IMG/VR virus record: IMGVR_UViG_3300048582_000069
Coordinates: 1-26,059 of that record
Length of the DNA stretch: 26,059 bases
Reading direction: 5' to 3' (one strand)
Source of the DNA: a virus
Position 1 is the first letter of the stretch. Every line of letters starts with the position of its first letter. The translations under genes and the position numbers were made by a program. The notes beneath the pieces were generated by a model. That model had not been told where the DNA came from. It saw nothing but the letters and a program-made list of their open reading frames with translations, and searched no databases. Positions 23,781 to 26,059 of the stretch are shown piece after piece.

Positions 23781-23983
23781 TACAAACAACAGCATACATT
23801 TTAGCAACATTTGCCCTTGGTTGGTGGTCATGGCTTATTTGGTACATCTATCAGTCAAAACGAACATTTATAACTTACAATGACGATACTAGAATGTATG
23901 AGTTGTGGCACGATAGAGAGTGTATATTCGAGCATACATTCTATTCGAGAGTAGAAATTGAGCGTCAAAGGTTGGGGTTATAA
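23777..23983 (+). CDS. Small single-span membrane protein (68 aa), last gene before the cassette array
   Basis: The N-terminus is a hydrophobic, tryptophan-rich segment (YILATFALGWWSWLIWYIY, residues ~7-25), followed by a short soluble part (TFITYNDDTRMYELWHDREC). It starts on an ATGA overlap. Its stop codon TAA (23981-23983) is formed by the first three bases of the first TAACG element, so the array junction falls exactly at the end of this gene. Function unknown. Confidence 0.6.
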   Translation: MIQTTAYILATFALGWWSWLIWYIYQSKRTFITYNDDTRMYELWHDRECIFEHTFYSRVEIERQRLGL

Positions 23984-24106
23984 CGGTTCTCGGCTTTGTG
24001 CAGGTGGGGCATTAAAGCACGAAAGTTTCAACCCACCACTAAACTTTAATAGAACTACAAATGATTGATTTTAAACTGAACCCCCACTTGCACAAAACCG
24101 ATGTTA
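23981..24106 (+). repeat. Cassette-array recombination-site-like element 1 (126 bp)
   Basis: It runs from TAAC (23981) to GTTA (24103-24106). Left arm CGGCTTTGTGCAGGTGGGG (23991-24009) pairs with right arm CCCCCACTTGCACAAAACCG (24081-24100). Between TAAC and the stem the left side has GGTTCT, the right side only AT, so the hairpin is asymmetric. The loop (24010-24080) holds GAAAGTTTCA, ACTAAACTTTAATAG and the ATG of the next gene. The left flank (gttggggtta) has no complementary partner upstream that I can see, so this looks like the first element of the array. Confidence 0.75.
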
Positions 24107-24339
24107 GCACCAGCGTTTTGTATCACGGCAGTCCAATTCGGATTGATGATAGATATATGGCGTCTGGCACTTTCTTCACGGTAGATAAAAATATTGCAAG
24201 AGATTATGGTAAATTCATTTATTCAATAGAATTAGACGAGAAAATAGCAAGCATATTCCATCCTGATAGTTTACGAGAGCATTTAGTTAGTTGTCGTTTA
24301 ATCCCGATGTTTATGTTCAATGTCCAGGAGTGTCCTTAA
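24061..24339 (+). CDS. Cassette gene 1: small YHGS-motif protein, possibly ADP-ribosyltransferase-like
   Basis: The ATG lies in the loop of element 1 and translation passes through its right arm (LNPHLHKTDVSTS) before the part that looks like a real domain: VLYHGSPIRIDDRYMASGTF, FTVDKNIARDYGKFIYSIEL. A YHG(S/T) strand, a G-F-FT segment and an A..YG helix recur in small ADP-ribosyltransferase-fold proteins, but no clear catalytic glutamate pair is visible and the protein (92 aa) is short, so this is weak. The next ATG (24157) lies inside the domain, so the arm-encoded N-terminus is probably used. The gene is enclosed by GTTAGCACCA and TGGTGCTAAC. Confidence 0.6.
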   Translation: MIDFKLNPHLHKTDVSTSVLYHGSPIRIDDRYMASGTFFTVDKNIARDYGKFIYSIELDEKIASIFHPDSLREHLVSCRLIPMFMFNVQECP

Positions 24340-24348
24340 CATTGGTGC

Positions 24349-24707
24349 TAACGGTTTGCGTATAAGCGAAGGTTTTAAAAATAGCGAAGGAATATGATAA
24401 AGAATATTAAAATAGGCAGATGTAACATTTCATTAGTGTTACACCACAGATTTGAAAAACAAAAGCGATTTGACCGAACATTTACAAGATGGGAAGTTGG
24501 ATTGTGGTTTAGGAAAAATAAAATAGTCGGTAGAACTAATTTTAGTAAGCCAAAAGAATGGGGTGATAATCTTGTAAATTCTTATATGTTAGGAATTGAA
24601 TTGCTTTTGTTTAGAGCGTGGATAAATTGGGATTTTAATGGAATGCACCTTGGAATCGACGATTAACTGTGCGTTGGCTTTTTAAAACTTTTGCTTATAC
24701 GCTGTTA
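24349..24707 (+). repeat. Cassette-array element 2, with a whole gene in its loop (359 bp)
   Basis: It runs from TAAC (24349-24352) to GTTA (24704-24707). The left arm at 24358-24381 (GCGTATAAGCGAAGG, then TTTTAAAAA) pairs with 24679-24702 (TTTTTAAAACTTTTG, then CTTATACGC): 22 of 24 positions match and the other two are G-T wobbles. An unpaired GGTTT follows the left TAAC. Unlike the other elements, the loop holds a complete gene (24394-24666). After GTTA only a short tail separates it from element 3. Confidence 0.75.
24394..24666 (+). CDS. Cassette gene 2: hypothetical protein inside element 2 (90 aa)
   Basis: A basic, aromatic protein (MIKNIKIGRCNISLVLHHRF; TFTRWEVGLWFRKNKIVGRT) with a C-terminal segment NSYMLGIELLLFRAWINWDF that may be a buried helix. 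The ATG follows an A/G-rich stretch (atagcgaaggaat) just after the left arm, and the stop is 12 bases before the right arm, so the gene fills the loop. I recognise no family. It cannot be told whether the loop or the interval is the mobile part. Confidence 0.65.
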   Translation: MIKNIKIGRCNISLVLHHRFEKQKRFDRTFTRWEVGLWFRKNKIVGRTNFSKPKEWGDNLVNSYMLGIELLLFRAWINWDFNGMHLGIDD

Positions 24708-24732
24708 TGGCATCGTTTTAATGTGCCATAAC
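24704..24732 (+). repeat. Gene-less cassette interval between elements 2 and 3
   Basis: GTTATGGCA (24704-24712) and TGCCATAAC (24724-24732) are perfectly complementary over nine bases with an 11-base loop (tcgttttaatg). The interval has the private flanking stem seen around the genes of the array but holds no gene, suggesting the cargo was lost or lies in the loop of element 2. Confidence 0.7.
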
Positions 24733-24848
24733 GTTATCGGGCTTGGCGAAGTGGCTGAACCCGAAGTTAAATAGAATTACTAAACTTTAAAATTAAGAAC
24801 AAATGTCAAATAGAATTACTGAACAGCCATTTTGCCAAACCCGTGTTA
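24729..24848 (+). repeat. Cassette-array element 3 (120 bp)
   Basis: TAAC at 24729-24732, GTTA at 24845-24848. CGGGCTTGGCGAAGTGGCTG (24738-24757) pairs with CAGCCATTTTGCCAAACCCG (24824-24843): 17 of 20 match, two wobbles, one mismatch. GTTAT is unpaired on the left. The loop carries AAATAGAATTACTAAACTTT and ends with the ATG of the next gene, close to the loop of element 1. Confidence 0.75.
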
Positions 24849-25132
24849 TATGCAGTGCTTTATCTTCCGATGATTGGAGAAGATTAGCTGGACATATTGA
24901 TAACGGCTTCTTTGCTAGTGAAAAAACTTTTTCGGCTGAAAGAAAGAACGGTTATTATTACCTAAACACAAATAAATGTGACGATGTGTCAATGGTTCGG
25001 GTGTATTGCCAAATTGGAGTTGAAGGCATTGATAAAATTGAAAGACTTGGAGAAGATACCGATGGATGGCAAGAGATACACCCGAACACCTACAAGAGTG
25101 TAGAAAAGTTTTTGAACGGTATGCGGTCTTAG
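24803..25132 (+). CDS. Cassette gene 3: hypothetical protein with arm-encoded N-terminus (109 aa)
   Basis: The ATG lies in the loop of element 3 after an A-rich stretch (aaaattaagaacaa). Residues 1-20 (MSNRITEQPFCQTRVICSAL) are encoded by loop, right arm and GTTA; the body follows (SSDDWRRLAGHIDNGFFASE, KNGYYYLNTNKCDDVSMVRV, GWQEIHPNTYKSVEKFLNGM). The body looks like a normal soluble alpha/beta protein; the arm-encoded part does not. No later ATG precedes the likely domain, so the fused start is probably real. The gene is enclosed by GTTATATGCAGTGC and GCATTGCATATAAC. Confidence 0.6.
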   Translation: MSNRITEQPFCQTRVICSALSSDDWRRLAGHIDNGFFASEKTFSAERKNGYYYLNTNKCDDVSMVRVYCQIGVEGIDKIERLGEDTDGWQEIHPNTYKSVEKFLNGMRS

Positions 25133-25141
25133 CATTGCATA

Positions 25142-25228
25142 TAACGTTTTCGGGCTTTGCGAAGGCTGCCTAACGGATGCTTAATTTTCGCACAAAAATC
25201 AATGGCAGCTTTTGCCAAACCGCTGTTA
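25142..25228 (+). repeat. Cassette-array element 4 (87 bp), with a 15-codon reading frame
   Basis: TAAC at 25142-25145, GTTA at 25225-25228. CGGGCTTTGCGAAGGCTGCC (25151-25170) pairs with GGCAGCTTTTGCCAAACCGC (25204-25223), strongest at the inner end. GTTTT is unpaired on the left. An ATG at 25202 reads MAAFAKPLLPAGRII and stops at 25249, before the next gene: the loop start here does not fuse to the cargo. Confidence 0.7.
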
Positions 25229-25272
25229 CCTGCTGGGCGGATTATTTAGCAGGAATTTAAAAAAGGAACAAA

Positions 25273-25635
25273 ATGAGTTTAGACGTTTATTTAAACAGAA
25301 AAAGGTATTTAAGCTACGATGAAGGCAAAACATATACCGAAGACGATGAGCGAGTTTATTGGGCAAACATTACCCATAATTTAGGCAAAATGGCAGGTGA
25401 AGCAGGAATTTATGAAGCACTTTGGCGACCAGAAGAAATTGGGAAAACAAAGGCGAGTGAAATTGTAGAGTTACTTGAAAAAGGATTAGCCGATTTGAAA
25501 GCAAGACCTGAATATTTTGAAAAGTTCAACTCGCCTAATGGATGGGGAATGTATGAACATTTTGTTCCTTTTGTTGAGAAGTATTTAGAAGCCTGTAAAG
25601 AATATCCTGATGCTGTTATCGAAGTGTCAAGGTAG
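25273..25635 (+). CDS. Cassette gene 4: conserved hypothetical phage protein (120 aa)
   Basis: The sequence (MSLDVYLNRKRYLSYDEGKT; VYWANITHNLGKMAGEAGIY; EALWRPEEIGKT; FNSPNGWGMYEHFVPFVEKY) belongs to a family I recall from many phages and bacteria, with the fixed N-I-T-H-N-L and N-G-W-G-x-Y stretches; its function is unknown. The ATG follows its own A/G-rich leader (aaaaaaggaacaaa), independent of element 4. It is enclosed by GTTACCTGC and GCAGGTAAC. The presence of a widespread phage gene inside the array suggests that the array captures phage cargo. Confidence 0.8.
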   Translation: MSLDVYLNRKRYLSYDEGKTYTEDDERVYWANITHNLGKMAGEAGIYEALWRPEEIGKTKASEIVELLEKGLADLKARPEYFEKFNSPNGWGMYEHFVPFVEKYLEACKEYPDAVIEVSR

Positions 25636-25644
25636 CCTTGCAGG

Positions 25645-25770
25645 TAACGGTTAGGGTATTGCCGAAGGCAGGGATTTAGAAGTAGAAAGTTTCAGCCTTG
25701 CACAAATGCCCAATAGAATTAAAAATGATTAATTAACCGAGAATGCCCTGCTTTTGACAATACCTTGTTA
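25645..25770 (+). repeat. Cassette-array element 5 (126 bp)
   Basis: TAAC at 25645-25648, GTTA at 25767-25770. AGGGTATTGCCGAAGGCAGG (25653-25672) pairs with CCTGCTTTTGACAATACCTT (25747-25766), mostly matches plus wobbles. GGTT is unpaired on the left. The loop repeats the pieces GAAAGTTTCA and AATAGAATTA of elements 1 and 3 and holds ATG ATT AAT TAA (25725-25736), a start followed at once by a stop. The right flank GTTAGGTGCAGTGC should find its complement just beyond the window. Confidence 0.75.
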
Positions 25771-25800
25771 GGTGCAGTGCTTCTCACAAATTTAAATAAA

Positions 25801-26059
25801 ATGGCAAAATACAAAGCAAAACAAATTAATGAAATTGAAGCGGAACAATTTTTACCACCACTTCAAATTCCAAAAGGTGTATTTAATGTTTACGGTTCAC
25901 CTAATGGCGAAGTTTATTCAGGGCAAGTTTGGACTATTCAAGGCGAAAGAGTAAATGTAAAAGCTGGTGAGTGGATAGTTCAAGAACCTGATAATTCAGA
26001 AAGATACTATCCAATAGCTGATGAAGTCTTTAAACGTAAATATGAATTGGTGCAGTCAT
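25801..26059 (+). CDS. Cassette gene 5: small phage protein with GEWIV motif (partial, runs off the window)
   Basis: The frame from ATG 25801 is open to the window end, 86 codons: MAKYKAKQINEIEAEQFLPP, VYSGQVWTIQGERVNVKAGE, WIVQEPDNSERYYPIADEVF and KRKYELVQS. It follows an A-rich leader (aaatttaaataaa). The pattern (K-x-x-x-I-E-A-x-Q-F near the start, V-x-x-G-E/D-W-I-V in the middle, Y-P-I-x-x-x-x-F-x-x-x-Y-E near the end) is that of a small protein common in phages, often described by its GDW(I/V) core; function unknown. It is the second typical phage gene in the array. Confidence 0.7.
   Translation, partial: MAKYKAKQINEIEAEQFLPPLQIPKGVFNVYGSPNGEVYSGQVWTIQGERVNVKAGEWIVQEPDNSERYYPIADEVFKRKYELVQS

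Follow-up and report, generated by a model that had tools for sequence, protein, structure and literature searches.

Five hairpin elements and their cassettes in a phage contig

The window analyzed here, the whole 26,059-base IMG/VR virus record IMGVR_UViG_3300048582_000069, ends in an array of attC-type hairpins alternating with small gene cassettes. An explicit pattern search (TAACG, arm, loop, arm, TGTTA) returned five matches (E1 to E5; 126, 359, 120, 87 and 126 bp), all of them on the + strand, whereas the - strand and a shuffled control of 371,396 bases gave no match, reproducing exactly the elements, lengths and boxes listed in an initial annotation made from the letters alone. That annotation had also held that the boxes do not fit the classical RYYYAAC/GTTRRRY forms, which is true of four of them (GTTAGCA, GTTATGG, GTTATAT and GTTACCT), but the fifth, GTTAGGT in E5, does fit GTTRRRY.

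E1 (23981..24106, + strand) marks the distal end of the array, and its TAAC overlaps the stop codon of the phage open reading frame (ORF) before it; because E1 belonged to the training set of the covariance model (CM) built for these elements, its match to that model is by construction. E2 (24349..24707, +), with arms of 24 bases that are 92% complementary, was missed by the CM owing to its long loop, and it reaches 359 bp because a 90-aa ORF without a Pfam or PHROG family match sits in that loop (24394..24666, +). E3 (24729..24848, +), taken with the next 13 bases, shows 89.5% identity to sites of the "Moomin" phages, which are Flavobacterium isolates, and there the corresponding hairpin stands before a DNA methyltransferase gene. 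E4 (25142..25228, +) was found by both the pattern search and the CM and is also present in the huge phage LR756502, and E5 (25645..25770, +) was likewise matched by the CM. Rfam and tRNA scans of the window gave no matches.

Single-stranded DNA folding was far better than that of shuffled sequences for E1 (z = -4.6) and E3 (z = -3.5) and no better than shuffles for E4 (z = -0.3) and E5 (z = -0.9), so that the last two are judged real by their homology and common form. Only on the + strand does pairing in E1, E3 and E5 extend down to the TAAC/GTTA ends, and the window + strand is the attC bottom strand. The ends of the cassettes, as distinct from those of the hairpins, show complementarity along some 15 bases (e.g., GTTATATGCAGTGCT / AGCATTGCATATAAC), a feature missing from the initial annotation, as was the ORF in the E2 loop. 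The five window elements are attC-type sites.

The first cassette (body GTTAGCACCAGCGTT...AACATTGGTGCTAAC, 24103..24352, +) has ends complementary at 13/15 positions. Its 92-aa ORF (24061..24339, +), without a Pfam or PHROG match, begins at an ATG within the E1 loop and takes its first ~15 residues from the right arm of E1. A miniature cassette without a gene (GTTATGGCATCG..TGTGCCATAAC, 24704..24732, +) follows E2, so that positions 24349-24732 hold a gene in the E2 loop and then a 29-bp gene-less inverted repeat in the place of a cassette; perhaps E2 is a site that swallowed a gene, a step in cassette birth. The 109-aa ORF of cassette 3 (24803..25132, +) has an N-terminus, MSNRITEQPFCQTRV, encoded by E3, and leaders near-identical to it precede unrelated proteins in other phages. 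Cassette 4 carries a 120-aa ORF (25273..25635, +) matching PHROG 4019, of unknown function, and the ORF of cassette 5 (25801..26059, +) is incomplete, ending at the contig end. The initial annotation had placed the array in or beside a phage. It lies in a phage, because the same contig encodes tape-measure, DnaB helicase, NinG and RecT-like proteins and arrays of this kind also occur in complete genomes of isolated phages.

Single-cassette movement in related phages

The Moomin phages (Nilsson et al. 2020, PMC7077304), described in a paper whose main text contains neither the word integron nor integrase, offered sixteen arrays from isolated phages of three genera, with up to 15 attC-type sites detected. 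All 16 arrays end at one constant, attI-like sequence, TAAC directly followed by TACAATATTACATGATAAAAAATATT. Phages lillamy9-1 and lillamy9-7 are nearly identical, the aligned blocks agreeing at 98.4-100% and most of them at 99.8% or more; they differ, among other changes, by a single 439-bp unit that lies mid-array in one and at the constant end in the other. Both the mid-array site that the unit left and the junctions of the moved unit are seamless.

Across all Moomin pairs, 109 of 150 distinct breakpoints were no more than 8 nt away from a left TAAC (expectation 3.4%), while the right GTTA accounted for 4 of the 150, which is background (3.1% expected). Most of the remainder lay 9-18 nt from the left TAAC, chiefly in the left arm, or at TAACG motifs missed by the hairpin finder; those in the left arm can be read as alignment running on by chance similarity. 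This pattern places the crossover at TAAC, with the hairpin traveling together with its downstream gene and the constant end acting as attI. The cassettes of relatives of the window array thus move singly, with exact R-box ends. The strain comparison proposed in the initial annotation therefore disposes of a fixed arrangement without cargo exchange. The annotation had not foreseen that the phage hairpin travels with the downstream gene or, as described below, that phage genes are reversed and many start inside the hairpin.

The start and end of the same cassette match at 7.9 of 12 positions in phages and 8.4 of 12 in bacteria, compared with 3.9-4.1 for shuffled partners and 4.0 across the hairpin. 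Although hairpin and gene move together, near-identical hairpins (such as E3 and Moomin H8) also precede unrelated genes across phages.

Distribution and box sequences of related elements

The strict pattern matched stretches of viruses and of genomes, at least 120 in each case; by record titles, the genomes among the matches listed all belong to Bacteroidota or the Ignavibacteria/Chlorobi group. In 247 sampled genomes of one Bacteroidota class, the pattern occurred in 55 (22%) and its backward control in none (0/247). These prevalences come from the exact pattern because the CM search of genomes, which returned short-loop elements only, undercounts. Palindrome and TAAC/GTTA ends are present, and the classical boxes are rare, GTTRRRY fitting 45 of 618 sites and RYYYAAC 35 of 618. 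A consensus derived from 44 diverse stems has compensatory changes at 17 of its 23 pairs and is unpaired at three places (columns 17/54, 24 and 27/45).

Elements of the E1-E5 type also stand beside the methyltransferase genes of Polaribacter phage P12002L. As a route to further arrays, 80 NinG-neighborhood loci yielded one weak match each in 4. The Polaribacter Freya phages, variable in length beside an integrase, gave no CM match and are not part of this cassette system. They hold another variable phage locus, in which isolates of the same host vary by as much as 4.9 kb, additional genes lie ahead of the integrase and hairpins of this type are lacking.

An integrase and an attI-like site beside chromosomal arrays

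All 30 array-bearing genomes examined encode matches to TIGR02249 at E <= 1e-10, none above the cutoff of that family, and in most the top match is a protein of ~340-400 aa. This integrase adjoins the array in many genomes, including Flavobacterium sp. LMO8, an isolate of the Moomin study, in which it lies beside a hairpin; the nearest hairpin is 0.6 kb away in F. sedimenticola, 0.6 kb in Flavobacterium sp. AS60 and 1.3 kb in F. celericrescens. In the 247-genome sample, an integrase was present in 42 of 55 pattern-positive versus 86 of 192 pattern-negative genomes (P = 3e-5), and, by counts read off tables by hand, 17 of 131 elements lay within 10 kb of one, versus 0.8 expected. Beside most integrases, usually within 200 nt, is an attI-like GTTA site with the motif (c)atatantaGTTA, resembling the Moomin end; it was located between the integrase and the first hairpin as the point where the cassette start is complementary to the cassette end. 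Relatives of the window array thus show what is expected of an integron attI, with an attI-like site beside most array integrases and, in the Moomin phages, a constant entry site at which one insertion took place.

The core of the integrase is XerA-like (NF040815, 217 bits, just below the cutoff of 220). Two array-adjoining integrases scored 181-192 bits on the IntI model, whose cutoff is 265; residues corresponding to IntI1 198-228 and 234-243 are absent in >80% of array integrases, and VchIntIA 183-244 is unmatched. Most chromosomal array integrases nonetheless share with IntI a C-terminal SP(L/F)D motif. The chromosomal proteins have an N-terminus of their own of ~70 aa, which the phage versions lack, and seven phage contigs encode a short relative (~260-290 aa) near the array; such short phage integrases lie at the attI end. 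In fold, XerA and VchIntIA come nearest to a structure model of the array integrase (pLDDT 82.5, pTM 0.56). The tree leaves the place of the array integrase among IntI, Xer and IS91-associated enzymes unsettled, with five XerC/D-type enzymes forming a separate clade. The suggestion that the cassettes belong to another recombinase, and that one shared by array-bearing genomes should be sought, was borne out by this tyrosine recombinase, which lacks the IntI-specific insertion, is partly IntI-like and stands beside related arrays.

Two integrases, in F. celericrescens (locus L375, 5549-7327) and Flavobacterium sp. LMO8 (locus L380, 1075-2817), occupy frames of ~580-590 aa with an extended and apparently repeated N-terminal part. 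On the Acinetobacter nosocomialis plasmid NZ_CP095868.1 (locus L404, 2504-4700), a recombinase fragment whose place in the tree is with an array integrase from Runella stands beside tet(X3). The gene is preceded by GTTATGTGCC and followed by TAACAAGCAGTTTTGCAATAGTGGGG, which resembles a truncated hairpin half; neither the CM nor the hairpin finder gave these flanks a score. The tet(X3) gene may have come from a Bacteroidota cassette platform.

Reversed genes and start codons within hairpins

Gene orientation was assessed from the longest ORFs between neighboring hairpins. ORFs ran in the hairpin sense in a ratio of 174:13 in viral loci, versus 5:81 and 1:33 in bacterial loci (P = 1e-60); relative to attC, phage genes are reversed (174:13) and chromosomal genes classical (114:6). 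Since the order attI-cassette-hairpin is identical in phages and chromosomes, it is the genes themselves that are reversed in phages. A reversal common to all arrays is rejected by these counts, as it holds for phages only. An ATG in the loop from which an ORF of 50 aa or more continues across the right arm was found in 157 of 384 phage hairpins (41%) versus 16 of 276 bacterial ones.

The 169-kb phage contig IMGVR_UViG_3300043411_001575 carries 47 hairpins over 36 kb, within 78-117 kb; the 43 ORFs of the array share a single strand, and at the attI end the phage encodes an integrase of its own. Several DNA methyltransferases were among ten of its proteins tested, and the leader RITEQPFCQTR(V) precedes several proteins of this array as well as window cassette 3. 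Since the genes of phage arrays point toward attI, they lie in the wrong sense for expression from a cassette promoter (Pc) in the platform that is directed away from it.

Proposed mechanism and alternative explanations

Taken together, these data make it very probable that this Bacteroidota phage carries a cassette array of integron type, served by a dedicated integrase that exchanges single units at an attI-like site. Comparison of related sequences delimits the unit, its junction, its single-unit movement, the constant attI-like end and the integrase beside related arrays, and from these we infer folding in vivo, the strand used and catalysis by the array integrase. A tyrosine recombinase would fold the + strand, that is, the bottom strand, and cut the left end of the hairpin at TAA^C, so that a unit [CG-hairpin-GTTA-gene-...TAA] would be excised or inserted singly. 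New units would enter through a single attI-like site, where the array ends on its far side. The + strand folding of E1, E3 and E5 and the TAA^C junctions are as expected for such single-stranded recombination of the bottom strand. The enzyme would belong to a Bacteroidota family whose core is XerA/IntI-like but lacks the IntI insertion and whose genes adjoin chromosomal arrays or are carried by some of the phages; for phages that lack it (the Moomin phages, perhaps the window phage), it would have to be supplied in trans by the host or a co-infecting phage. Phage genes would be transcribed within phage transcription units, many probably starting translation in the hairpin loop, and new units would be added to a run of co-oriented genes on its promoter-distal side, often bringing their own start codon. 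Cargo such as DNA methyltransferases plausibly serves counter-defense.

Several observations weigh against this account. The window contig stops inside the array, before attI, with no integrase in view, and the window array may be served by an integrase in trans, as for the Moomin phages. The evidence of movement comes from relatives rather than from the cassettes of the window itself. No Phage_integrase (PF00589) protein was found in the five Moomin phages tested or in LR756500 and LR756502, and a host enzyme acting on the Moomin phages in trans is an assumption. Among the 247 genomes, 13 of the 55 pattern-positive ones have no detected integrase and 86 of the 192 pattern-negative ones have one, which implies further members or functions of the integrase family, or arrays overlooked by the strict pattern. 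Finally, the compensatory changes in 17 of 23 pairs of the consensus stem are inflated, since stems were chosen by complementarity, and they describe the fold rather than prove it.

An ordinary phage cluster of attC sites lacking an integron integrase (CALIN), composed of classical cassettes acquired from bacteria, now static and handled, if by any enzyme, by a canonical IntI, is an unlikely explanation. It draws on the P12002L methyltransferase genes, which are flanked by elements of the present type, and on Qi et al. 2023 (PMC9892861), where CALINs are reported in virulent phages, among them one with methyltransferases in P12002L, and class 1 IntI1 is reported to have recombined one P12002L site. 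That site, P12002L_attC2, could not be assigned to a particular element here. Such a cluster accords poorly with the recent single-cassette movement, with boxes of which only 45 of 618 fit GTTRRRY, with phage genes reversed relative to attC, unlike those of chromosomal arrays, and with neighboring integrases of which the two scored fall well below the IntI cutoff and most lack IntI1 residues 198-243.

Host XerC/XerD acting on folded, dif-mimicking single strands, as with CTX-type phages, would leave the neighboring integrases as unrelated mobile elements. Xer enzymes are universal and able to act on hairpins, and the Moomin phages have no recombinase of their own; yet an integrase lies beside arrays far above chance with an attI-like site adjoining, and the five XerC/D-type enzymes form a separate clade, so we regard this route as highly improbable. 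Homologous recombination between similar repeats or methyltransferase genes, with the hairpins as terminators or repetitive extragenic palindromic (REP)-like repeats, could appeal to the common core of the hairpins, which makes them repeats, and to the breakpoints 9-18 nt into the left arm. Against it, breakpoints concentrate at TAAC and are at background level at GTTA, the moved cassette and its new target share only ~5 nt, and that target is no hairpin; the hairpins are crossed by ORFs, a feature incompatible with terminators. We give this explanation almost no weight, and REP/bacterial interspersed mosaic element (BIME) or terminator repeats, which would be fixed, untranslated and without cargo exchange, are ruled out by the movement, the breakpoints and the ORFs through hairpins.

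The array belongs to an integron-type system that is widespread in Bacteroidota and their viruses and has apparently gone unrecognized. If the integrase works as inferred, a large system of gene exchange between bacteria and phages has so far gone largely unseen, and folded sites could be recombined by an enzyme devoid of the IntI-specific insertion. The Moomin phages and their sequenced hosts provide a ready test bed, with near-identical isolates one moved cassette apart, and genes that are reversed and take their start codon from attC bring the birth and expression of cassettes within direct reach of a test.

Comparison with known systems

Searches that covered few subscription papers and no bioRxiv preprints found no description of the integrase-attC pairing or of phage gene reversal. 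Complete Bacteroidota integrons are scarce in integron surveys, IntegronFinder 2.0 (PMC9024848) listing one, in Salinibacter ruber, and reviews count Bacteroidota among the integron-bearing phyla. The window (an incomplete contig with five sites) and the Moomin phages have the composition of phage CALINs, at least two attC sites in a phage and no integron integrase. They also share with the CALINs of Qi et al. 2023 (PMC9892861) attC-type sites without an integrase in a phage and DNA methyltransferase cargo, and divergent attC directions are noted there for Polaribacter phage P12002L. The available part of that study describes no constant attI-like end, cassette movement between isolates, cognate integrase family or phage gene reversal.

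The "inverted" integrons of Treponema (PMC3607928) resemble most of the chromosomal Bacteroidota cases in having the integrase transcribed toward the array, but their integrase family and attC are different and their genes, as far as described, are not reversed. Tyrosine recombinases paired with IS91-family transposases (e.g., on Sphingomonas pJE1) are ~37-54% identical to one array integrase in a plasmid search and likewise lack the IntI insertion, but they adjoin such a transposase; tblastn with one distant IS91-family transposase query, a search of modest power, found no such relative near array loci. Archaeal XerA (NF040815), which acts on dif, is the best sequence match of the array integrase core, but it has neither a cassette array nor the N-terminal extension.

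The closest parallel is with integrons proper (class 1 and Vibrio chromosomal), which likewise have single genes as units, folded palindromic sites with TAAC/GTTA ends, and one attI-like entry site adjoined by a tyrosine recombinase. They differ in that the array integrase lacks the IntI-specific insertion, the R boxes are mostly not GTTRRRY, and the phage cassette gene is reversed relative to attC, often starting in the hairpin. A tentative reading, which we hold at somewhat less than even chances, is that integrons of a second kind evolved independently in Bacteroidota, as a cassette system of chromosomes and phages alike that relies on XerA/IS91-type recombinases lacking the IntI insertion, with phage attC supplying the start codon and N-terminus of reversed genes. 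The system works like an integron, while departing from the known ones in the IntI insertion, in the GTTRRRY box and, in phages, in gene order.

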